A stretch of DNA of 64,000 nt from Nitrospira sp. SB0662_bin_26 (GTDB lineage Bacteria; Nitrospirota; Nitrospiria; Nitrospirales; UBA8639), in assembly GCA_009840285.1 (NCBI GenBank), contig VXOF01000109.1, positions 1 to 64,000 on the forward strand, given 5' to 3'. Made by a program: the position numbers and the translations under genes. Positions 3,407-19,669 of the stretch are shown here, piece by piece. The notes beneath the pieces were generated by a model. It saw only the letters and a list, made by a program, of their open reading frames with translations. It ran no database searches and was not told where the DNA came from. How positions within the stretch are numbered: position 1 is the stretch's first letter; each line of letters opens with the position of its first letter.

Positions 3407-4486
3407 ATGACGATTCGAGACACCGTCGGGCAACTCTTGATGGTGGGGTTTGAAGGGACGGAGTTCTCCCGGCAATTTCTCGCTTGGCTGGAGGAGTATC
3501 GACCCGGGGGCGTCATTCTCTTTTCGCGGAACCTGAAAGATCCCGAACAGGTGGCGCAACTGACCAATGCTCTTCAAGAGCATGCGCCCAATCCTCCCTT
3601 GTTGATTGCCATTGACGAGGAAGGTGGCCGTGTATCCCGCTTGCCCCAGGGCTTTACGACGTTTCCGGCCGCTTCACGGGTCGCGGCGTGTCACGCTTCG
3701 GATGTGGCCTATGAAGCGGCGGCGGTCACGGCTCAAGAATTGCGGGCGGTGGGGATCAACATGAACATGGCGCCGATTTTGGACGTGAACAACAATCCGG
3801 CTAATCCGATTATTGGCGATCGGGCGTATGGCACAGAGCCCGAACCGGTCTGCGCGTACGGTCTGTCTGTGATGCAGGGACTTGAAGACAATGGCATCAT
3901 TCCATGCGGCAAACATTTTCCAGGGCATGGCGATACCATGACTGATTCCCACCACGTACTACCTGTGGTCGAGGCGGACCGCACACGACTCGACGCCGTG
4001 GAACTTGAACCCTTTCGACGGGCGATCCGCCGGGGACTGCCCGCGATCATGACCGCGCACGTGCGCTACCCGGCTCTCGACGCGGAAGCACCTGCGACGC
4101 TGTCCCAATCCATCCTCACCGATCTGTTGCGGAATGAGTTGGGCTTTGAAGGCGTCACGCTCACTGACGACATGGAAATGCGCGCCATTCTTGACCATCA
4201 GCCCATCGGAGAAGCAACGGTGCGAGCTTTACAGGCCGGTGCCGACATGGTGGTCATCTGTCATCAGCAGGAGAGGCAAAGGGAGGCCGTGTCGGCCATT
4301 GAGCAGGCCCTTGAACGAGGTGACCTGTCGTGGGAGAGGCTCACGGCGAGTGTCGCTCGTATCCGGGCCCTGAAAGAGAAACGTCTCGAACCGTTTCAGC
4401 CCGTGGATCCATCGCGGGTCGCGCAAACCGTTGGTCATCCGCGGCACAAAGCCTTGTTGGCGAAGATTCAAAATGATGTCGGCTAG
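3407..4486 (+). CDS. nagZ: Beta-N-acetylhexosaminidase (GH3)
   Basis: AIDEEGGRVSRLPQGFTTFP, KHFPGHGDTMTDSHHVLPVV, VTLTDDMEMRAI. Confidence 0.93.
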   Translation: MTIRDTVGQLLMVGFEGTEFSRQFLAWLEEYRPGGVILFSRNLKDPEQVAQLTNALQEHAPNPPLLIAIDEEGGRVSRLPQGFTTFPAASRVAACHASDVAYEAAAVTAQELRAVGINMNMAPILDVNNNPANPIIGDRAYGTEPEPVCAYGLSVMQGLEDNGIIPCGKHFPGHGDTMTDSHHVLPVVEADRTRLDAVELEPFRRAIRRGLPAIMTAHVRYPALDAEAPATLSQSILTDLLRNELGFEGVTLTDDMEMRAILDHQPIGEATVRALQAGADMVVICHQQERQREAVSAIEQALERGDLSWERLTASVARIRALKEKRLEPFQPVDPSRVAQTVGHPRHKALLAKIQNDVG

Positions 4487-5887: not shown

Positions 5888-5899
5888 TTGGAGACAAAC

Positions 5900-8800
5900 A
5901 TGAACAAGTCTGAAAACCCTGTTGCTATCGTAGGGTACAGTTACCGCATGCCGGGCGGAATCCGCACCGATGACGACTTCTGGCGGCTGCTGAGCGAACG
6001 CGAGATCGTGCAGGAGCCGGTAAATGAGCGCTACGGCCAAGGCTACCGGCCAATCGGCGAGTTCTCCGGCCCGGGTCGGTTTGCCAGCCCGTACGAAGGG
6101 CTGCTCACCGAGCAAAGAGAAAAGCTCTTCGATCGTAGCCTCTTTGCGATGTCGCATCGTGAAATGCTGACAGCCGATCCGCACGTGCGAATGCTCCTGA
6201 CCTGTACCTGGGAGACCTCCGAGCGGGTTGGCTGGGATTTGCAATCGTTGCGCAACAGCCGCACGGGCGTGTTCGTCGGCGCGCAGGTTCCGGCGACCTC
6301 CAACTGGCGCGCGGCGCACGGCGCCAATGAGTTTTCCATCGCCAATATCAGCCTGGCCATGATGGCCAACCGTATCTCCTACCACTTCAACCTGATGGGA
6401 CCGTCGCTCGCCTGTTGCACGGCCTGTTCCGCCGGCTTGACGGCCTTGCACACGGCGTTGAACGCCCTGCGCTACGGCGACTGCGAACAAGCCTTCGTCG
6501 GGTCGGTCACTTACCTGGGATCAGCCCGGCTCAGCGCAGGCTTCAATGCCTTGGGCGTGATCAGTCCGGACGGCCGGTGCCACTCCTTCGATGCGGACGC
6601 CAACGGCTACATGCGCTCGGAAGGAGCGTTCGTCTTTGCCATCAAGCCCCTGGCGGCAGCCGAAAGAGACGGAGACCCCATCTACGCCGTGATAGAAGCA
6701 ACGGCAGTGAATGCGGCCGGTGCGGCCGACGGCACCGAGGGCTTGGCTCAAGGGCGTTACATTACCGCGCCTACCCGTCATTCACAGGTTGAGTTGATGC
6801 GCATCGCCTGCACCCGCGCCAATCGGGCCCCCCAGGATTTTGATTACATCGAAGCCCATGCGACCGGGACCGTGGTGGGTGATCGCATCGAAGGGAATGC
6901 CATCACGGAGGCGTTCGGCGGTTCCGATCGCACAGTTCCGTTACGCGTTTCCAGCGTCAAGAGCAACGTCGGGCACATGGAGGCCGCCGCGTTCCATTGC
7001 GCCTTGCTCAAGGTCATCCTGATGATGCAGCGCCGCACGTTCGCGCCGATCTCCAAGAATTTCCTGGTGCCGAATCCGGAAATCGACTTCGACAGGTGCC
7101 CCATGCAGGTGCAGACGACCTGCGAACCCTTTCCCGAACATCCGGTCGTGGTCGGCATCAATTCGTTCGGCTTTGGCGGGGCCAACGGGCACTGCGTGGT
7201 GCGGGAGTACAGCCCGGCGCGACCACGGATCTGGTCGGTGGCACTGGCGCCGGAGTCGGGCTTCATGATTCCTCTATCGGCGCGTACGTCCGGCGCGCTG
7301 GAAAAGAGCGCGCGACAGTTGCGCGAGACTCTCGACAAGCAACCGATGGATCTCTACACGCTGGCCGGCAATCTCAGCCGCCGCCGCACCCATTTCGCCA
7401 CCCGGACGGCCTTTGCAGTCCGTACCCGGGAAGAACTGATTGAGACACTGGACGCCTTTGAAAAAGACCCGGCGCCGGTCGCCATGGTCGGTGAGGGGAG
7501 GCCACGGCTTGTGATGGTGTTCTCCGGACAGGGTACACAGTGGGCCGGTTGCGGTCGCGGGCTTTACGACGCCGATCCCGTGTTCCGCCGCGTCATCGAT
7601 GCCATTGAGGACCACTGGCGGGAGCACTCGGAAATCTCGTTGCGCGAAGCCTGTTTCTCGGCCACGCAGGAGGCGCTCGACGAGTGCGAGTTGGCCCAGC
7701 CCGTCACGTTCATGATCCAGTGCGCCCTGGCGGAATTGTTCAAGACGTGGGGCGTGTATCCGGACTGCGTGGTCGGTCACAGTTCCGGCGAGGCCGCCGC
7801 CGCTTACGCCTGCGGGGCGCTGTCGCTGGCGGAAGCCACGCGCCTGATTTTCCATCGCGCCACGTTGCAACAGCGCGTGGCCGGTTCCGGTCGCATGCTG
7901 GCGGTCGGCCTTGACCGGCTGGGCGTGGAGCAGCTGCTCGATACGCTACGTGTTCCCTTTCGGGACGGGGAAGACCGGCAAGTGGAGATCGCCTGTGAAA
8001 ACGCGCCGGCCAGTACCGTCATCTGCGGGAAAGAGGTTGCCTTGCGGCCCGTCATGGAGGAATTGGACCGACGCCACCTGCAGAATCGGCTGCTTCAGGG
8101 TAATATTGCCTTCCACTCCAGCGCCATGGACCCGCTCAAGGACGACGCAGGGGTGTTTCTGTCCTTCCTGAACGCTTGCGCCTTCGACGCCGAAGTGCCG
8201 CTCGTTTCTTCGGTAACGGGACAGACGACTCAACGGTTGGACAGCGCCTACTGGTGGAAGAACATCCGCCAGACCGTCCTGTTTGCCGCGGCGATCGAAA
8301 CCGTCAAGCGGGAGTACCGGCCCGACGTCTTTCTGGAACTCGGGCCGCACAGCGCCCTGCAGTCCACCCTCGCCCAGTGCCTGGAAGACTGCGCCCCGGT
8401 CCCCGCCTGCATTCCGACGCTGCTGAGAGGCACGGATGTCTGCCTCAGCTTCAAGCGGGCCTTGGGCGCTCTGTTCAGGACCGGCGTGGACCTGGACTTC
8501 GCCGCCCAGTACCCCCGTCCCGAGCCGGTCGCCCATCTGTTGCCCGGCCATCCGCGCGACGAACAGATCACGGCCGACGAAATGAGCGACGACGAGATGT
8601 TCCTGCAACAAGGCCAGTACGCCCACGGTCCGTTGATCGGCCACCGGGTGCCGTGCGACCACCTGCTGTTCGAGGCGCGGCTGTCGGAGCGAGATTTTCC
8701 CTGGCTGGCTGAGCACCGTGTGCATTATGCCTCGATCATGCCGGCGGCCGGCTACATCGAACTGATCCTCCAGGCGTTCGGGGGCGTTCCGCTGCACGTG

Positions 8801-11800
8801 GAAACGCTCGAGTTCCTGCAGCCGTGTCCGATTCCCAAGACGCCGGTGCGGCTGCAGACCGCGTTGTTTCCGGTCCCCAACGCACCGGACGAATTCACCT
8901 TCACCATCTCGTCCCGGTCGTACGACGTCGAGTCAAAGAGCGAACTGCACTCCCGCGGCAAGGTGCGCTTGGTGCGTGCAGATCATCCGGTGAACGTACC
9001 GCTACGGCTGGCGGATATCGATACCACGCCGTTCGAGCCCTACTACTTCGTGGGTGAAAACGACTTCTACGAGCGCATCGACGCCAGCCTCGGCGAGACC
9101 TTCCAGTACGGTCCCTACTTCCGGAACATCCAGCGCGTTCTGTGGGAAGGCGACACGGCCGACTATCTGTTCGACGTGGAAATGGATGAGAGGCTGTGGA
9201 CGACCGGTCGCGAGGAAGGGTACGTCGCAAACCCTGCGCTGCTCGACGGCGGGCTGCAGATCTTCCTCTACCATCTGCTGCGCGCGACCGACATCTTCGC
9301 CATGCCGCGGCGCGCCCAAGGAGTGACGTTCCTGCGCCCGCCGACCGGACCGCGTCTCACCTGCTACGTGAAGAAAGCCAAGGACTGGGCGGACGTGAAC
9401 GAACTGGGGCAGTTCACGGAACGGCGTGGCGAGCGGTCCGGTGGCAGCATCCGGTTCTACGATGGCGCCACGGGCGACCTGGTCTTGTGTATCGACGCCT
9501 ACGTCTCCTTCAACTCAAACCCACGCTGGAACGAGCTGCCGGACAGCAAGCACGTCGTCTCATGGCAGCCCAAGTTCGTGCCGGACGCGGTTGCTGCCCT
9601 GCACCGCCTGCCGGAGGGCGAGATCGAGCCGGCGGCATTGATCGCCGCCTTGGAGCAGCCCGGCGCCGGTGACCGCTATGCCTGCCATGTCGCCGAGATC
9701 GCGGGCGCACACCCTCCTGAGCAGACCATCCTTAATCAATGCCTCGACTACCTCGGCAGCGCCGGGGCACAGACCGAGTACTGGCTGCTCGGCGACACGC
9801 AGGAACAGGTGCGCGCGCACTACGACGCGTTTTCCAACCGCGATGCCGCCCTGCGCTTTGCCTGCTTTGACCTCGCTACGGAGCAGGCGCCGAATCTGGA
9901 CACCGGCCTGCTGCGGGCGCACGCCGCCGAGATTCTCTTGCTCTATGGAGGCGCCACGCCGTCGGAGACGGAGCAGTGGGGCCTGCTGCGGCGTCTGGCG
10001 GTCCCCGGCGGCCTGGCGCTGGTCGTACACCCCGACGGCGCGGCGATCGAGCCGGGCGCCGGCTGGAAAACGGTACGCACCGGCCGGCACACCACCCTGC
10101 TGCAAGCGCCCCAGGCTGTGAATACCTCCGAACCGCGGGAGTTGCCCGGGCCCCGCTGGGTGATCGGCGAGCCGGGCAGTTTGGCCGCCGAATGGCTGGC
10201 GTTCCTCAAGATGTCCGAGGCGCACGCCATTCCCCAGGCAGACTTGATGGAGGACGGCGTCAGTGCGCCGGCCGGCTGGCCGCAGGCGGCTGACGTGCAG
10301 GCGATCGACTTCTTCTGCGGCAGCGACCCCGACGATCCGACAGGCGAAAAGCTGGTGGCGCGCCTGGTCGCCTTCGTCAAGGCGCTGATTCCGTTCCGGG
10401 TGGCGCAGGCGCGCTGTTCCTGCCGCTTGACCGTGGTGACGCGCCGCGCCGCGTTCGAGGTTGCGGAGCCGCGCGCGAGCGCCGTGTGGGGAGCGTTGCG
10501 GGCCATCGGTCAGGAGGTCGCCGCGGACGTGGGTGCGGAGTCACAGATCGAATTTCGGCTGGTAGATCTGGATGCCGCCGGCGATCTTGAGACGTTGGCC
10601 TGGCTCGGTGCGTGCGACCTGCGGGAGCGCGAGCTGGCGATCCGCCGCAACCGGATATGGGTGCCGCGGCTGACCAGTATCCGGGAGCGGGGTCCGCTGG
10701 TGCCGGCGGGTGAGGAAGCCACCTACCGGCTGACCCTGGAAAATCCGGGACAGATCGGCGGCCTGCAGATGACGACCTACGAGCCCGCATCTCTGGGGCC
10801 GCACGATGTGGAGATCGACGTGGCAGCCGCGGGGCTCAACTTTCGCGACGTTATGGTCACACTGGGGTTGCTGCCGTCACTCTCCTACGAACGCTCGGCG
10901 CTGGGCCGCACGGTGGGGGTGGAGGCCAGCGGGGTCGTGCGCCGCACGGGTGCCGCGGTGCATACCTGCCGCCCCGGCGAAGCCGTGGCCTTTACCCAAG
11001 GCGGCTGCATCGCCAATCGCGCCGTGGTTAAAGAATATCTGGTGTTCCGCAAACCCTCGTCCCTCACCATGGAGGAGGCCGCGTCTGTCCTGTCGGTTTA
11101 CGTCACCGCCTACTATTCGCTGGTGCATCTCGCGCGCCTGCGCAAAGGCCAGCGCGTGCTGATCCACTCCGCCATGGGCGGCGTCGGCCAGGCGGCGATC
11201 GCCCTTGCGAAGCACGCGGGAGCGGAGATCTACGCCACGGCCGGCAGTGAGAGCAAGCGCCAACAGCTGCGTGCGCTGGGGGTGCGCGCGGCATTCGATT
11301 CGCGCTCCTTCGACTGGTACGACGAACTGCTGGCGGCGACCCGCGGCGAGGGGGTCGACGTGGTCTTGAACTCTTTGGCCGGACGCCATATCGCTCTCTG
11401 CCTGGATGCGTTGCGGCCGGGAGGCTGGCACTGCGAGATCGGCAAGGTGGACATCTACGCCGACAATGCGCTCAGCCTGTGCGTGTTCCGGAAGAACCTG
11501 CGCTTCGCGGCGATCGACGTCGACCGCCTGATGAGCGACGATCCGGAACTGGCACGCGAATTGTCGCAGCAGTGCATGAACCTGCTGGATCAGGGTGCCG
11601 TGCCGCCGTTACCGACAACCTCCTTCGCCTACCGCGACTATGCCGAGGCGCTACGCCTGATGACCACCGGCCAGCACACAGGGAAGCTGGTTCTGAAAGC
11701 TCCGCCAGCCGCCGGCGCCGACCGCTTCCCGGTTGTCGATCGGCGCCCGTTTCTCGACCCCGAGGCGACCTACCTGATCACCGGTGGATTGGGTGGATTC

Positions 11801-12970
11801 GGCAGGCTGTTGCTGTCCTATCTGGTGGCCGCGGGTGCGCGCCATCTCACCTTGATGGACCGTGATCCGCAACGCCGCCGCAGTGCCGACTGGGTCAGGA
11901 AAACCAGTGCGTTGTGGTACCTCACGGAAGAAGTGGAGATCGACATCGTCGCAGGCGACGTCGCGGAAGAGGAGGACGCGCGGCGTTGTATCGCCGGGTT
12001 GCAGCGCCCGCTGAAAGGCGTGTTCCATCTCGCGGGTGTACTGGACGATTGCCTGCTGACCGACCTGACGCCCGAATCGCTGGCCAAGGTCTTCGCACCC
12101 AAGGCGCGCGGCGCCCTCAATCTCCACAATGCGACCGCCGACCTCGCCCTCGACCACTTCGTGCTGTTCTCCTCCATCGCCTCGACCTTGGGCAACCCGG
12201 GACAGGTCAACTACAGCGCCGCCAACGGGTTCGTAGACGGACTGGCGGCCTTCCGCCGGCGCCAGGGATTGCCCGCGCTGTGCTACAACCTGGCCGCGGT
12301 CGCGGAGGCCGGCATGGCCGCGCGCAGCCTGCATGTGCTGCGTATGACGCGGGCCGCGGGCATGCCTCCGGTCAGCGCCGATTTCGCCGTGACCAACCTC
12401 GATTACGCCATGCGCACGCTGGCCGACAGGGATCACCTGATTACCGCCCTGTTCTTCCGCCCGCCTTGGACAGTCGACTCGCCCGACTACCTGCGGAGCG
12501 GACGGGTGCTCAGCAACCCGGACGCGTTCGCGATCGATACCGGGGGCCAACTCACGCTGGATGCCGTGGTCGAGCAGATCACCGGCAAGGTGGCCGAGTT
12601 GTGCGGGCACAGCGAGGGCAGCCCGGAGGAACCGTTGTCCAGCTTCGGGCTCACGTCGATTTCGGTCGCCGAACTGGGAGCGTTCATCCGGATGCAGTTC
12701 AACTATCAGGTCAGCGCCCTCGAACTGATGACGACGGCCTCCGCTCTGTCGTTGGCACAGGACATCATCCATGGAAAGAAGGACGTTCAGGAAGACCAAG
12801 CCGCGACGGATACGGCCGGGCCCGAGGATGCTGCCCTTGCCGGTCAGCAGCGGGCCCGCCGCACGCCATCGGCGTTTGCCAGCACGCTTGAAGACCACTT
12901 TCCGCCCGGGGCCGGCGTGGTATCCGCCAACCCTGAAAACAGGGAGCGGGGAGACCGTTGCCATGCCTAA
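5900..12970 (+). CDS. Single-module, fully reducing type I polyketide synthase (KS-AT-DH-pseudoMT-ER-KR-ACP)
   Basis: KS TACSAG / EAHATGT / KSNVGH; AT GHSSGEAAAAY; DH EHRVHYASIMPAAGY; ER VLIHSAMGGVGQAAIALAK; KR YLITGGLGGFGR and NYSAANGFVDGLA; ACP GLTSISVAEL. ATG 5900 preceded by GGAG. Confidence 0.93.
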   Translation: MNKSENPVAIVGYSYRMPGGIRTDDDFWRLLSEREIVQEPVNERYGQGYRPIGEFSGPGRFASPYEGLLTEQREKLFDRSLFAMSHREMLTADPHVRMLLTCTWETSERVGWDLQSLRNSRTGVFVGAQVPATSNWRAAHGANEFSIANISLAMMANRISYHFNLMGPSLACCTACSAGLTALHTALNALRYGDCEQAFVGSVTYLGSARLSAGFNALGVISPDGRCHSFDADANGYMRSEGAFVFAIKPLAAAERDGDPIYAVIEATAVNAAGAADGTEGLAQGRYITAPTRHSQVELMRIACTRANRAPQDFDYIEAHATGTVVGDRIEGNAITEAFGGSDRTVPLRVSSVKSNVGHMEAAAFHCALLKVILMMQRRTFAPISKNFLVPNPEIDFDRCPMQVQTTCEPFPEHPVVVGINSFGFGGANGHCVVREYSPARPRIWSVALAPESGFMIPLSARTSGALEKSARQLRETLDKQPMDLYTLAGNLSRRRTHFATRTAFAVRTREELIETLDAFEKDPAPVAMVGEGRPRLVMVFSGQGTQWAGCGRGLYDADPVFRRVIDAIEDHWREHSEISLREACFSATQEALDECELAQPVTFMIQCALAELFKTWGVYPDCVVGHSSGEAAAAYACGALSLAEATRLIFHRATLQQRVAGSGRMLAVGLDRLGVEQLLDTLRVPFRDGEDRQVEIACENAPASTVICGKEVALRPVMEELDRRHLQNRLLQGNIAFHSSAMDPLKDDAGVFLSFLNACAFDAEVPLVSSVTGQTTQRLDSAYWWKNIRQTVLFAAAIETVKREYRPDVFLELGPHSALQSTLAQCLEDCAPVPACIPTLLRGTDVCLSFKRALGALFRTGVDLDFAAQYPRPEPVAHLLPGHPRDEQITADEMSDDEMFLQQGQYAHGPLIGHRVPCDHLLFEARLSERDFPWLAEHRVHYASIMPAAGYIELILQAFGGVPLHVETLEFLQPCPIPKTPVRLQTALFPVPNAPDEFTFTISSRSYDVESKSELHSRGKVRLVRADHPVNVPLRLADIDTTPFEPYYFVGENDFYERIDASLGETFQYGPYFRNIQRVLWEGDTADYLFDVEMDERLWTTGREEGYVANPALLDGGLQIFLYHLLRATDIFAMPRRAQGVTFLRPPTGPRLTCYVKKAKDWADVNELGQFTERRGERSGGSIRFYDGATGDLVLCIDAYVSFNSNPRWNELPDSKHVVSWQPKFVPDAVAALHRLPEGEIEPAALIAALEQPGAGDRYACHVAEIAGAHPPEQTILNQCLDYLGSAGAQTEYWLLGDTQEQVRAHYDAFSNRDAALRFACFDLATEQAPNLDTGLLRAHAAEILLLYGGATPSETEQWGLLRRLAVPGGLALVVHPDGAAIEPGAGWKTVRTGRHTTLLQAPQAVNTSEPRELPGPRWVIGEPGSLAAEWLAFLKMSEAHAIPQADLMEDGVSAPAGWPQAADVQAIDFFCGSDPDDPTGEKLVARLVAFVKALIPFRVAQARCSCRLTVVTRRAAFEVAEPRASAVWGALRAIGQEVAADVGAESQIEFRLVDLDAAGDLETLAWLGACDLRERELAIRRNRIWVPRLTSIRERGPLVPAGEEATYRLTLENPGQIGGLQMTTYEPASLGPHDVEIDVAAAGLNFRDVMVTLGLLPSLSYERSALGRTVGVEASGVVRRTGAAVHTCRPGEAVAFTQGGCIANRAVVKEYLVFRKPSSLTMEEAASVLSVYVTAYYSLVHLARLRKGQRVLIHSAMGGVGQAAIALAKHAGAEIYATAGSESKRQQLRALGVRAAFDSRSFDWYDELLAATRGEGVDVVLNSLAGRHIALCLDALRPGGWHCEIGKVDIYADNALSLCVFRKNLRFAAIDVDRLMSDDPELARELSQQCMNLLDQGAVPPLPTTSFAYRDYAEALRLMTTGQHTGKLVLKAPPAAGADRFPVVDRRPFLDPEATYLITGGLGGFGRLLLSYLVAAGARHLTLMDRDPQRRRSADWVRKTSALWYLTEEVEIDIVAGDVAEEEDARRCIAGLQRPLKGVFHLAGVLDDCLLTDLTPESLAKVFAPKARGALNLHNATADLALDHFVLFSSIASTLGNPGQVNYSAANGFVDGLAAFRRRQGLPALCYNLAAVAEAGMAARSLHVLRMTRAAGMPPVSADFAVTNLDYAMRTLADRDHLITALFFRPPWTVDSPDYLRSGRVLSNPDAFAIDTGGQLTLDAVVEQITGKVAELCGHSEGSPEEPLSSFGLTSISVAELGAFIRMQFNYQVSALELMTTASALSLAQDIIHGKKDVQEDQAATDTAGPEDAALAGQQRARRTPSAFASTLEDHFPPGAGVVSANPENRERGDRCHA

Positions 12971-14735
12971 TGCGCTTCTGGTGTATCCCGCCTATCCCCC
13001 TTCCTATTGGGGGTCGCAATTTGCCCTGGAGATTTTTGGGATGAAGGCGATCTTTCCTCCCCTGGGTCTGCTCACCATCGCCGCGATGTTTCCGCCGGGA
13101 TACGATCTCCGCGTCGTGGATATGAACGTGGCTCCCTTGAACGATTCGGACCTGGAGTGGGCCGACCTGGTGTTTACTTCCACGATGGTCGTTCAGCGAG
13201 AATCCCTGAAAACCGTGATCGAGCGCTGCAACCGGGCAGGCGTTCCGGTGGTCGCCGGTGGGCCCCATCCCACCACGTTTCATGAGGAGATCTCCGGCGT
13301 GGCCCATTTCGTGCTGGATGAAGCCGAGGAAATCTTTCCCGAATTTCTGCACGACCTGGAGAACGGTACGGCCAAAGCCATCTACAGGGAACCGCGAAAA
13401 CCGGACGTGACCGGGACTCCGGTTCCCCGCTTCGACCTCATCAATGTCAAGGACTACTACTCCATGTGCGTGCAGTTCTCTCGGGGCTGTCCCTTCGACT
13501 GCGAATTCTGTGACATCATCCAGTTGTATGGGCGTGTGCCCCGAACCAAGACGCCGGAGCAGATGGTGAACGAGTTCGAAGCCTTGTATCGACTCGGCTG
13601 GCGAGGTCAATTGTTCCTGGTGGACGACAACTTCATCAGCAACAAGCGGGATGCCTTGAAGCTGCTGCCGGTGCTCGCCGAGTGGCAGAAGGCCCGTGGC
13701 TATCCGTTCACCCTGTTCACCGAGGCGACCGTGAACCTGGCCCGCATGGATGAATTGATGGACGTCATGATCGAGGCCGGGTTCAATGCGGTGTACGTGG
13801 GCATTGAAACGCCCAACCCCAAGGCCTTGCTCAAGATGAAGAAACCTCAGAATGTGAGGAAGCAGGAAGATCAGTATCTCCTCAATTCGGTTCGCACCAT
13901 CCAGCACAAGGGGATGCAAGTCATGGGGGGATTCATCCTGGGCCTGGATGATGACGACGAGAGCGCATTCGACGCCCAGATTGACTTTATCCAGGAGGCA
14001 GGCATTCCCATGGCCTCGGTCGGTTTGCTGACTGCGATCAAGGGTACGGATTTGTACAAGCGCCTGAAGAGGGAGAACCGGCTGTTGGATCAGTCCGTCG
14101 GCGCCCGCGCCGACTCGGTCGTCAACTTAATCAGCGTCAACGTCCCCCTCAACTTCATTCCGGAGATGGATCCCGTGACGTTGGCTGAGGGTTATCGCCG
14201 GGTGATCACCACCCTCTACGATCCGACGCTTGAGAATTACTTCAAACGCTGCCTGACCTTGTTGACGCACCTCAAGGCCGTCCCGCACCTGCTGAAACCG
14301 CAGAGCCGGAACGCGCTTTTTGGAGCCATGATGGCTGTACGGCGGCGGCTGTCCCCCAGGCAAGTCCCGGCCTACCAGCAGTTCATGGCTAGGGTTGCCA
14401 AGGACCATCCCCGTATGCTCCCCGAGGCGACCTCCCTGGCCGTGCAGGGGTACCACTTTGAGAAGATTACCCGCCAACAGATTTCGATCCAGGACTTCAA
14501 GGACTTTCTGGCGGCGGAGTTGGAGCAGTTCAAGGAAGCGGTGTCGCACCCGTTGCAGGACGTGGAAACAATCGGGAACCGGAGGCAAGCGTTGTTCACG
14601 CGCGTCCGGACGCGCTATGAATCGATACCCGGGGATTTTCGTCACGACGAGGATGGCATCGAACCTGCGATGGAGACCTTCCAATCCTCCGTGAATGCAC
14701 GGGTGGAGCAGTTTACACACTCGGCGGCGACGTAA
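12963..14735 (+). CDS. B12-binding domain radical SAM protein (DUF4070/HpnP-like)
   Basis: N-terminal B12-binding-like region (LLVYPAYPPSYWGSQFALEIFG...PPLGLLTIAAM), MVVQRES, QFSRGCPFDCEFCDI; ATG overlaps PKS stop. Confidence 0.88.
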   Translation: MPNALLVYPAYPPSYWGSQFALEIFGMKAIFPPLGLLTIAAMFPPGYDLRVVDMNVAPLNDSDLEWADLVFTSTMVVQRESLKTVIERCNRAGVPVVAGGPHPTTFHEEISGVAHFVLDEAEEIFPEFLHDLENGTAKAIYREPRKPDVTGTPVPRFDLINVKDYYSMCVQFSRGCPFDCEFCDIIQLYGRVPRTKTPEQMVNEFEALYRLGWRGQLFLVDDNFISNKRDALKLLPVLAEWQKARGYPFTLFTEATVNLARMDELMDVMIEAGFNAVYVGIETPNPKALLKMKKPQNVRKQEDQYLLNSVRTIQHKGMQVMGGFILGLDDDDESAFDAQIDFIQEAGIPMASVGLLTAIKGTDLYKRLKRENRLLDQSVGARADSVVNLISVNVPLNFIPEMDPVTLAEGYRRVITTLYDPTLENYFKRCLTLLTHLKAVPHLLKPQSRNALFGAMMAVRRRLSPRQVPAYQQFMARVAKDHPRMLPEATSLAVQGYHFEKITRQQISIQDFKDFLAAELEQFKEAVSHPLQDVETIGNRRQALFTRVRTRYESIPGDFRHDEDGIEPAMETFQSSVNARVEQFTHSAAT

Positions 14736-14780
14736 AGAACCACTCTAAATCTGCCCTGCTCAAGGAAAGGAAAGAGGACC

Positions 14781-17285
14781 GTGACCGAAAGAACCGGCAT
14801 CGACACGACCGTGGCCCCGCTCGTTGGAGCCTTGCCGCCGCAATGTCAACGCGACCTTGACGGGCTGCGGGCGTTCGTTCGCCGCGCCATCGGCGACGGC
14901 AAGCCGGCGGCGGCCGTGCCGGTGACCGAGGTCAAGGAGGTGCTGCTGACCGGGGCGACCGGGTTCGTGGGCCGCTTCGTCCTGCGCGACCTGCTGTGCA
15001 TGGAGGGTGACCTGGTAGTGCACTGCCTGGTGCGGGCCACGGACGGCGAGCACGGACTGCACCACCTGCGGGCGGCCCTGGAAGAGGCGGAGATCTGGGA
15101 ACAGGCATTCGCCGCGCGCATCCGTGTGGTTGCTGGCGACATCGGCGAGCCGCGCCTCGGCCTGAGTCAGGCCGCCTTCGACGACCTGGCGCGGCGCATC
15201 GACGCGGTCCATCACTTCGCGGCGGAGGTAAGCCTCTCCACGTCCTATTCCGCGATCCGCAAGACCAACGCGTTAAGCATGCACAACGTGCTGGGGCTGT
15301 GCCTGCACACCCGGCTCAAGCACCTGTTCCACGCCTCCACCATGGGGGTGTTCCCGCAGTACTTCTGCGACTTCGCCAACGAGTTCGCCGGGCGCAGCAT
15401 TGAGCATCAGGGACAGCCGGACGTGGCCGAGATGAAGCGCATGTTCCCGCTCTCCCTCGGCGGGTATTCGTGGAGCAAGCTGGTCGCCGAGCAGAGCGTG
15501 CTGTTCGCGCACCAGGCCGGCCTGCCGGTGGGGGTGTTTCGATTGCCGCTGACCAGCCGGTCCACCACGGGGTATACGCAGCCGAGCGACACCTCGGTGC
15601 GGTTGTACGCTGCGGTCGCGGACGTGAAGATGATGCCGGGCGGCTTTTCGTTTCAGCGGCAGAACCACACGGTAGACACCCTGAGCCGCATCTGTACTGC
15701 GATTGCGTCCAACCCGGAGCGGCAGTTCACCCTGTATCACTGCTGCAACGCGAACCCGGTCCCACACGATATAGAGTTGGCCGACTTCGGTCTCTATCTG
15801 CGCGAGGTTCCGTACGATACCTTCAAGCGCGCCTGCCAGGCGCGTGGCGAGAGCTCGCCGCTGCACGGCTACTGGGCGCTGTTCGAGAAATTCGCGCCCT
15901 ACTGGTTCAGTCCCAGCAAGGCGCTGACCGACCTGCCGGTCAGCGTCCGCGCGTTGCGCGAGGACTGTCCTTTTTCGATCGAGTGGCCGGGGATCCTGAC
16001 CATGTTCCGGCGCACCAACGACTGGATCAGGGCGCATCGGGACCAGTGGCCGTTCGAGCTGCCGCAGCCGCGCATCGACTACGACCACCTGATGACGCGC
16101 GCCGAGCATTACGCGGAACGCTTCGGGGCGCCGTTCGCCGAGACCTATCCCGAGTGGCTGCGTGACGGACTTGCCCGCCTCGTGGAGGCGCTGCAGGCGC
16201 CGGAGGCGTGCCTGTTGCAGGCCAAGCGCGCCGTCGTCGTCTCCGATCTGAGCGCCAGCCTGCGCAACAACGCAAAGCTCACCGGTGAGCGAGTGCGGCA
16301 CCCGGAAATCGGGCGCGAGAGGATCGTGCGGCCGGTGTTCATCGTCGGTGTCAACCGCACGGGGACCACGTTCCTGCACCGTCTGCTGGCGCGCGATCCC
16401 CGCTTCTGGACCCTGCGCACTTACGAATTGGCGGAACCGATGGTGCCGGGCGGCGACTACGCCAGGGCCTGGACCGACGCCGACATCCGGCGTGCGCAGC
16501 TACGGGACGTGTTTGTGGCCGCGGGTTTCTTCGAATCGTTCGTGGGCGCCCATCACCTCGACGTCGATGAGCCCGAGGAGGATCTCCCCCTATTGCGGCA
16601 CACCTTCCGGTCCTGGTCCAACACCAACATCTACCTTGTGCCCGGCTACGGTCGCTGGCTTTCCGCGGCCGGTTCGCACCCAGCCTACGGATACCATCGC
16701 CGCGCCATCCAGCACTTCACCTGGCAGCGGCATATGCAGCAACCCGGGCGGGAGGCCCAGTGGCTGTTGAAGGCGCCCGTCCATCTCATGGAGTTGGAGG
16801 CGCTGATCGGTGCCTACCCGGACGCCTGTTTCATCCAGACCCACCGCGAACCGCGGGAGTTCACGGGCTCGTGGGTGAGCCTGATAGAGCAACTCCGTGC
16901 CCGCTCCACCGAACCGACCCCCCGCAGCGTCCTCGGAGCCGAGCAGTTGGCTCACATGAGTTCCATGCTGGAGCGGGCCGTGCATTTCCGGGAAACCCAT
17001 CCGGAGCTGGAGCACCGCTGGATGGATGTCAACTATGTCGATCTGACCGAGGATCCGTTTGAAGTGGTTCGCCGCATCTATCAGCACTTCGGCTGGACGC
17101 TCGAACAGGCGGCTCTCGACGCCATGGAAGAGTGGCAATTCCAACAGGGGGAAAAACGACGCACCGAGAAGCGGCATCGCTACGACCTGAAGGATTATGG
17201 CCTCACGCCGGAGGCGGTCAACTCCGCTTTCAAACGGTATCGGGACTTCATCACCACCCGCGGCATTCGGACATCCCGGGCATGA
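14781..17285 (+). CDS. Fusion: N-terminal thioester reductase-like SDR + C-terminal sulfotransferase (Sulfotransfer_3-like)
   Basis: VLLTGATGFVGRFVLRDLL, VHHFAAEVSLSTSYSAIRKTN, YSWSK; then RPVFIVGVNRTGTTFLHRLLARDPRFWTLRTYEL, LLKAPVHLMELEAL, FIQTHREP. GTG start with purine-rich RBS. Confidence 0.88.
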   Translation: MTERTGIDTTVAPLVGALPPQCQRDLDGLRAFVRRAIGDGKPAAAVPVTEVKEVLLTGATGFVGRFVLRDLLCMEGDLVVHCLVRATDGEHGLHHLRAALEEAEIWEQAFAARIRVVAGDIGEPRLGLSQAAFDDLARRIDAVHHFAAEVSLSTSYSAIRKTNALSMHNVLGLCLHTRLKHLFHASTMGVFPQYFCDFANEFAGRSIEHQGQPDVAEMKRMFPLSLGGYSWSKLVAEQSVLFAHQAGLPVGVFRLPLTSRSTTGYTQPSDTSVRLYAAVADVKMMPGGFSFQRQNHTVDTLSRICTAIASNPERQFTLYHCCNANPVPHDIELADFGLYLREVPYDTFKRACQARGESSPLHGYWALFEKFAPYWFSPSKALTDLPVSVRALREDCPFSIEWPGILTMFRRTNDWIRAHRDQWPFELPQPRIDYDHLMTRAEHYAERFGAPFAETYPEWLRDGLARLVEALQAPEACLLQAKRAVVVSDLSASLRNNAKLTGERVRHPEIGRERIVRPVFIVGVNRTGTTFLHRLLARDPRFWTLRTYELAEPMVPGGDYARAWTDADIRRAQLRDVFVAAGFFESFVGAHHLDVDEPEEDLPLLRHTFRSWSNTNIYLVPGYGRWLSAAGSHPAYGYHRRAIQHFTWQRHMQQPGREAQWLLKAPVHLMELEALIGAYPDACFIQTHREPREFTGSWVSLIEQLRARSTEPTPRSVLGAEQLAHMSSMLERAVHFRETHPELEHRWMDVNYVDLTEDPFEVVRRIYQHFGWTLEQAALDAMEEWQFQQGEKRRTEKRHRYDLKDYGLTPEAVNSAFKRYRDFITTRGIRTSRA

Positions 17286-17863: not shown

Positions 17864-19669
17864 ATGCCGAATCAGAGAGGCTTCAGCCGTTTCGACGCGC
17901 TTGAGACGGAGTCGGGCAATGCCAGGGAGAACGTCCTGCGCTTCATCATCTGCGGCGATGCGGGCGACGGCAAGTCCGCACTGATCCGCAGCCTGGTTGA
18001 CCATCTCCAGGCGGAACGCGAACAGGGCGTTGCGACGGACGTCGCCGACCGCACGTTCTCAACAAACACACGTTCGTTTGTTGTCGCCGACACACCGGGG
18101 CACGAGCAATACACGCGCAACATGGTGACGGGCGCCTGGATCGCCGATCTCGCGATCGTTCTCATCGACGCCCGCATGGGGGTGATGCCGCAGACCCGCC
18201 GCCATACCACGATCCTCTCCCTCCTCGGCATCCGACACATGATCCTGGCGCTCAACAAGATGGATCTCGTGGCGTGGTCCCGAATCGTCTACGACGGGAT
18301 CGCTGGAGTCTATTGTGACTATGCGCAACGGCTTGACGTGACTAACGTCACGTGCATTCCGGTCTCGGCGCTGACCGGAGACAACGTGACCGCGCCGTCC
18401 GATGCAATGGGTTGGTATCACGGGCCGACGCTCCTCCAGGCACTCGAATCGGCCGACGTCGCCACCGACCGCAAGATCGCGCCCTTTCGCATGCCCGTGC
18501 AAGAGGTCAATCGCTTCGATTCCGGGTTCCGCGGTATCGCAGGCACCATCGTGTCGGGTCTCGTGTGTCCAGGCGATCCCGTCCTTGTCTGTCCCACGTA
18601 CAAGCCCTCGACCGTGAGTCGTATCGTGACCGCAGACGGCGATCTGATGCGCGCGGGACCCGGCCAAACCGTCACGCTTTCGCTCGCCGCCGACATTGAC
18701 GCGAGTGCCGGTGACGTCATTGCGTCGACCACCCATCCTCCGGGCCACAGCGACCAGTTTTCCTGTCACCTGATCTGGATGCACGAAAAGGCGCTGCTGC
18801 CCAAGCGCCCCTATCTGTTGAAGATCGGTACGCACGTGGTGGGGGCCCAAATCACGGCCCTCAAATACAAACTCAACGTCGAGAGCCTGGAACACGTGGC
18901 TGCCAGGACGCTTGAGCTCAACGACATCGCCTACTGCAACATCAGTCTCGACCGGCAAATCGCTTTCGATCCTTATCGGGAACTCAAGGAGACGGGCGGC
19001 TTCATCCTGATCGATCGCTATACTCATGCGACGGTGGGCGCCGGCATGATCGATTTTGCCTTGCGGCGGGCGTCCAACCTGACCCGTCACCAGTTGACGG
19101 TCGACAAACCGGCACGCTCGGCGCAGAAGAACCAGAAGTCCTGCGTGCTGTGGCTCACCGGGCTCTCGGGGGCGGGTAAATCGACCACGGCCAATGCCGT
19201 GGAGCAACGCCTGCACGCCCTCGGCCGGCACAGTTACGTCCTGGACGGCGACAACCTGCGCCACGGGCTGACGAGGGATCTGGGTTTCACCCAGGCCGAC
19301 CGCGTGGAGAACGTGCGGCGTATCGCCGAGGTCGCCAGGTTGTTCGTCGACGCCGGTTTGATCGTGCTCGTCTCGGTGATTTCACCTTTTCGGGATGAAC
19401 GTGAGATGGCCCGCCGAATGATGGAAGAAGGCGAGTTCATCGAGGTCTTCGTCGATGCTCCCCTGGAGGTCTGTGAGCGACGTGATCCCAAGGGGCTCTA
19501 CCGGAAGGCCCGCGCCGGCGAGATCAAGAACTTCACCGGTATCGACAGCCCCTATGAACCGCCCGAGAGACCCGACATCGTGCTGAAGACCGCCGAGCGA
19601 AGCGTGGACGAACTCGCGGATCAGGTCATCGCGTATCTGCAATCGATGGTCGATTCTCCGGAGCCATAG
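17864..19669 (+). CDS. cysNC: CysN-CysC-like bifunctional protein (sulfate adenylyltransferase large subunit-like GTPase + adenylylsulfate kinase)
   Basis: [60 protein letters not shown]-term [57 protein letters not shown]. Confidence 0.88.

Follow-up and report, generated by a model that had tools for sequence, protein, structure and literature searches.

The locus examined here raises a question about how an acyl chain leaves its carrier protein: does one bacterial polypeptide truly join a thioester reductase (R) to a sulfotransferase (ST), and what might such a partnership produce? The original prediction, made from the letters of a 64,000-nucleotide stretch of Nitrospira sp. SB0662_bin_26 DNA (contig VXOF01000109.1, hereafter called the window), placed both activities in a single 834-aa protein. 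In the sections below we establish that the fusion exists, identify its gene cluster, and weigh several readings of its function. The features on which these arguments depend are collected in Table 1.

Table 1. Features of the swf region in the window
Feature	Position	Strand	Description and basis
swfA	5888..12970	+	Single-module iterative-type PKS, KS-AT-DH-ER-KR-ACP, 2360 aa; Pfam, sequence signatures
swfC	12963..14735	+	B12-binding radical SAM with DUF4070, ~590 aa from ATG 12963; Pfam, homolog starts
swfB	14781..17285	+	Reductase-sulfotransferase fusion, 834 aa, GTG start
Reductase (NAD_binding_4) core, aa 56-292	14946..15656	+	Pfam; fold match to MxaA R domain 4w4t/4u7w
Sulfotransferase (Sulfotransfer_3) core, aa 518-775	16332..17105	+	Pfam; fold match to STF1 2zq5, STF9 2z6v
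CysN/APS kinase fusion	17864..19669	+	APS kinase domain intact, GTPase half shortened

A genuine and conserved fusion

The union of the two halves is genuine and conserved. In the translated window, the swfB frame runs without an internal stop codon, AAAGAGG precedes its start, and its G+C content by codon position (0.66/0.46/0.85) is coding-like. A scan of 85,462 GTDB species genomes yielded 42 loci, and in 39 of them the alignment covers 691 or more of the 834 residues of window SwfB. All but one of these 39 align over ~790 residues or more, the exception (L059) being clipped by a contig end, and short fragments account for at most three of the 42 loci. The hosts span about eight phyla and include Nitrospirota, Acidobacteriota, Gemmatimonadota, Latescibacterota, Pseudomonadota, Rhodothermota, Binatia, and two contigs labeled Actinomycetota. 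Window SwfB is 46%–61% identical to the other SwfB proteins compared.

One continuous frame extends across the match in 35 of the 40 rows inspected; of the remaining five, three fall short by only a few residues, and the frames of L054 and L061 are broken inside. In eight close pairs, dN/dS is 0.11–0.25 for the whole protein, 0.07–0.30 for the R and ST parts, and 0.08–0.56 for the linker. Thus, all three parts are under purifying selection, the linker least consistently. A frameshift or an assembly error that joined two genes, which the original prediction had named among its possible refutations, is ruled out by the presence of the fusion in dozens of independent assemblies. The homologs in many phyla therefore exclude a joining error, and the search for proteins of the same architecture that had been recommended gave conserved fused examples with near-full alignment.

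Two recognizable catalytic halves

The assignments of the halves to a thioester reductase and a sulfotransferase are borne out by Pfam, in which both families score far above their cutoffs. NAD_binding_4 matches with E 1e-47 (162.8 bits against a cutoff of 20.1), and the TIGR01746 Thioester-redct model gives 200.6 bits, slightly below its cutoff of 213. The motifs that had first drawn attention to the protein are real and coincide with expected functional sites: GATGFVGRFVL is the Rossmann glycine motif and YSWSK the YxxxK pair. The reductase triad comprises T187 (T/S), Y229, and K233. Among 36 divergent SwfB rows, G58, G61, G64, S186, and K233 are invariant, the T187 column holds T or S in every row, and Y229 is kept in 35. 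With its Rossmann glycine motif, S/T-Y-K residues, and R-domain fold, this half has the features of a thioester R domain of the extended SDR type.

The closest PDB match of the R half in both sequence and fold is the MxaA terminal reductase (4u7w, 4w4t), with which it shares the YxxSK signature and the Rossmann loop at an identity of ~25%. Unlike SwfB, the MxaA domain terminates a PKS-NRPS that has no sulfotransferase. The myxalamid enzyme is cited as having been studied for making primary alcohols (Barajas 2015, cited in PMC5826065). The aldehyde is the end point for many R domains, and the assayed reductase of a Cryptosporidium FAS did not have its two- versus four-electron product resolved (PMC2995488).

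Sulfotransfer_3 matches the C-terminal half with E 2e-37 (130 bits against a cutoff of 27), and this is the sole match to that family in the whole genome. The P-loop-like start VNRTGTTFLHRLL corresponds to the 5'-phosphosulfate loop, whereas FIQTHREP begins the 3'-phosphate region. Expressed as residues, the motifs are an N525-R526-x-G528-T529-T530 loop, K664-x-P-x-H668, and H688-R689, and every named residue among them is invariant in the same 36 rows. S697 is found in 34 of the 35 residues present at its column. Together, the 5'-phosphosulfate loop, the R...S of the 3'-phosphate site, and the fold mark a PAPS-dependent sulfotransferase.

By profile search the SwfB sulfotransferase is closest to mycobacterial STF1 (2zq5, 5e-58), followed by STF9 (2z6v, 4e-44). 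These two structures are its closest matches in fold as well as in sequence, and they have in common with it the RTGTT loop along with KxPxHL and THR segments. Unlike SwfB, both are single-domain proteins free of any PKS release domain. A CurM-like identity for the ST half was also considered and is not backed by the search: judged by match names, no CurM or olefin synthase (Ols) structure is present among the 60 of 68 matches listed (E up to 5).

An AlphaFold model built from 36 natural sequences is confident except at both ends (pLDDT 90.4, pTM 0.87). Its top fold matches include 4w4t (TM 0.78) and 2zq5 (TM 0.85, both normalized by target), in agreement with the MxaA and STF1 relationships. 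A viral structure library gave generic SDR and sulfotransferase matches only.

The window gene belongs to a swf cluster

Its domains, neighbors, and motifs identify the window gene as the swfB of a complete swf cluster in a sponge-associated member of the Nitrospirales, genus Bin75. The swf cluster of sponge symbionts was reported by Della Sala et al. in 2013, with SwfB described as "R + ST domains" (PMC3908369). Published examples from Plakortis simplex fosmids (pPS11G3 and pPSA11D7) and from Aplysina aerophoba (POR_0550) share both domains and their order with the window protein, are 832–839 aa long, and have the same partners, SwfA and SwfC; in the POR cluster the gene order swfA-swfC-swfB is also that of the window (PMC3908369). 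This order is kept in most of our loci that have enough flank. The match rests on described domains, sizes, partners, gene order, and SwfA signatures. The window cluster differs from the published ones in being placed in Nitrospirales through a MAG and in having an APS kinase gene downstream.

Several motif comparisons fit this identification. The window protein, with its N-terminal thioester R domain and C-terminal sulfotransferase, conforms to the expected length of about 835 aa and adjoins a single-module PKS with the domain order listed in Table 1. Published SwfA signatures are HATGT replacing HGTGT, IAFH and GHSSGE in the AT domain, a QCALVEL-like segment, and replacement of the second Q of DPQQR (PMC3908369). 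Window SwfA carries EAHATGT, NIAFHS, GHSSGE, QCALAEL, and DPHVR; thus, the QCALVEL segment has one substitution, and neither Q of DPQQR remains. The CX3CX2C motif of SwfC is present as CPFDCEFC. A longer swfC frame that begins at 12771 overlaps swfA, and many homologs begin at about residue 50–65 of this longer frame.

The original prediction had emphasized that pairing a sulfotransferase with a reductase is a different release logic from the sulfotransferase-thioesterase (ST-TE) pairing of CurM and Ols. That difference stands, but the novelty of the fusion does not, because the SwfB family was published in 2013, and an alkyl sulfate or primary sulfate product has already been proposed for it (PMC3908369). 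Heterologous work on swf showed ACP activation only (PMC3908369). The early assignment of the cluster to Poribacteria was later reported as no longer valid (PMC4245539); MAG work assigned swf-like clusters to Nitrospirota, Latescibacterota, and Acidobacteriota (PMC9426513) and also to 'Thalassonella' (PMC10227082). In the open-access literature we found no product reported for any swf cluster, and nothing on R+ST function beyond the swf descriptions of 2013–2023. The published description also mentions two coccidian type I FASs in which contiguous R and ST domains likewise end a reducing megasynthase (PMC3908369); these enzymes are eukaryotic and multimodular.

Some clusters depart from the usual composition. 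Tandem SwfC-type radical SAM matches lie between swfA and swfB at L057:6469-9954 and L033:6460-10017. In seven swfA-swfB clusters (L038, L041, L044, L046, L051, L055, and L064), no swfC was detected at its usual place, and the radical SAM step, and with it any methylation, is therefore optional.

Single-chain PKS-R-ST proteins

In two distant loci, SwfA and SwfB form one polypeptide with the order KS-AT-DH-ER-KR-ACP-R-ST. These single chains are 3197 aa (L060:2894-12484) and 3180 aa (L065:2936-12475) in length. In both, R directly follows the ACP of the SwfA portion, which is the position of a terminal release domain, and ST then follows R. This order supports the view that R acts on the carrier domain of SwfA itself. 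L065 is labeled Streptosporangiaceae and has 74% G+C, whereas L060 is labeled Williamsia and has 49%. Williamsia is a high-GC genus, and the taxon label of L060 is therefore doubtful. Neither the single-chain form nor the mosaic, decaying state of the cluster described below turned up in the open-access literature that we consulted. Such proteins also make the substrate question testable with one expression construct.

Probable supply of PAPS

An APS kinase domain located ~1.9 kb downstream from swfB is the strongest in the genome at 242 bits, the next scoring 56 bits. In the CysN half of this gene, the segment that separates the P-loop from the switch region is missing, and shortened versions also occur in the swf-bearing loci L016, L017, and L019 of the genus and in genome G003. 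Among these, the carriers of swf have an intact APS kinase half, and a separate APS kinase adjoins the Arenicellales cluster L064. From this arrangement, the CysN/APS kinase protein is a probable source of PAPS for SwfB.

Genomes G003, G010, and G011 had suggested that the kinase gene and swf are lost together, which was considered as proof of a dedicated supply. This argument fails: homologs with longer open frames are present in G006, G008, and G010, which keep full-length copies. Because G006 and G008 retain the gene without swfB, the kinase is not dedicated to swf.

A proposed release pathway and its alternatives

The operon context of a PKS, a B12 radical SAM protein, and an APS kinase, which the original prediction had overlooked, makes function readable. 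SwfA would act iteratively to assemble a long acyl chain, for the most part saturated, on its own C-terminal ACP, and SwfC might introduce methyl branches by B12/radical SAM chemistry. The R half of SwfB would take the acyl-ACP thioester and release the chain by NADPH-driven reduction, most likely with four electrons to give a primary alcohol. The ST half would then transfer sulfate from PAPS, probably made by the adjoining APS kinase, to the alcohol hydroxyl to yield an anionic alkyl-sulfate lipid. We infer the order of these steps, the alcohol rather than the aldehyde, the sulfated position, and the product; the alcohol is the most likely release product because the R half resembles MxaA. 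This whole reading of SwfABC has, in our estimation, somewhat better than even prospects. Channelling of the reduced product directly to sulfation, which the original prediction read from the fusion, draws no support from the present analysis.

One competing possibility is that the sulfotransferase acts before the reductase. As in CurM, ST would modify an ACP-bound beta-hydroxyl, after which R would release a beta-sulfooxy aldehyde or alcohol, or the sulfate would leave to give an unsaturated product. PKS-embedded sulfotransferases with such logic exist (curacin, cited in PMC3908369), and since SwfA has KR and DH domains, skipping of the final DH step could leave a beta-hydroxyl in place. However, the DH and ER matches of SwfA lead one to expect full reduction, the ST half is closest to STF1/STF9 and not visibly to CurM/Ols structures among the matches listed, and the operon has no thioesterase partner. 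Indeed, Pfam detected no thioesterase domain in SwfA, SwfC, SwfB, or the next downstream gene. CurM and the cyanobacterial olefin synthases resemble swf in having a PKS-linked sulfotransferase near chain release, but there a thioesterase with decarboxylative elimination comes after ST (curacin, per PMC3908369), whereas in SwfB the ST follows a reductase. We consider a sulfation-first order improbable.

Alternatively, R might perform a two-electron reduction to an aldehyde destined for a partner enzyme while ST sulfates a co-substrate of its own, for instance a glycolipid or quinone; the halves would then be coupled but act on different atoms. The many R domains that halt at the aldehyde (PMC2995488) would be in keeping with this scheme, as would the mycobacterial protein Rv1373, which is reported to be a glycolipid sulfotransferase (PMC13141999). 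The multi-phylum fusion and the single PKS-R-ST chains are most simply explained by consecutive steps on one chain, however, and the conserved part of the operon consists of swfA, swfC, and swfB only, with no gene for making an acceptor. Separate substrates are thus unlikely, if a little less so than sulfation first.

Reductive release followed by sulfation may extend well beyond this locus. R-ST could be a self-contained release module that converts polyketide-type acyl-ACPs to alkyl sulfates, an anionic lipid class among unrelated sponge symbionts that would include at least two single-chain PKS-R-ST lineages. We hold this generalization tentatively, its chances falling slightly short of even. 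Clusters of the swf type are found widely across sponge microbiomes. Should an alkyl sulfate be confirmed, bacteria of many phyla in the same hosts would produce one class of sulfated lipid, by a reductive counterpart of ST-TE release.

Loss, probable recombination, and possible transfer of the cluster

The GTDB genus of the host is found mostly in marine sponges (PMC11812461), and we compared 14 of its genomes. The genus includes Nitrospira sp. bin75, for which genome G005 and locus L028 represent a single contig of 55,393 bp. The window, G001, G004, G005, G011 (with one internal stop), and G013 each have swfB, either full or cut by a contig end. Only 3' remnants of swfB persist in G010 and G003, and in G011 swfA is broken and swfC was not detected. 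The remnants and broken copies lie at L021 (~10156-11144), L022 (~3855-4151), and L018 (from G010, G003, and G011), those of G003 and G011 sharing one chromosomal position, with the genes for NagZ and CysNC on either side. The presence of remnants in several members of the genus indicates that swf has been lost more than once.

These losses raise the possibility that window swfB is itself a decaying relic. Its branch is long (0.53), and it carries nine changes at positions that are otherwise at least 97% conserved. Nevertheless, the window swfA, swfC, and swfB frames are intact, every catalytic residue is kept, and changes of this kind are more numerous in the Williamsia-labeled, Streptosporangiaceae, and Arenicellales rows. 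Moreover, the DNA pattern fits recombination of divergent swf alleles rather than decay. When window positions 6001-17000 are compared with L019 (G001), DNA identity is 90%–99% in swfA, ~76% in the region just upstream, ~71%–83% in swfC, 58%–67% in the middle of swfB, and 91% at its end. Recombination between divergent swf alleles, apparently across species, explains this mosaic best, and a relic is very improbable.

Branching in the SwfB tree disagrees with phyla: sequences from Nitrospirota are scattered over several places, one of them beside Latescibacteria and Gemmatimonadota, which suggests transfer among co-resident symbionts. The placement of window SwfB in this tree is uncertain because of its long branch.

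Two further observations concern large PKS genes of the genus. In Nitrospira sp. bin75, the SwfA frame is interrupted near residue 1117 (L028, MPMZ01000012, ~4300-4340), and the POR_0547/POR_0548 SwfA pair from Aplysina aerophoba is split near aa 1105–1108 (PMC3908369). Given these nearby breaks, the POR contig may originate from the Nitrospira sp. bin75 lineage. Additionally, the genome that contains the window (G000) encodes a second large PKS frame of 3428 aa on contig C46 (2414-12148), which is ~32%–37% identical to parts of SwfA and has relatives in most of the genus.
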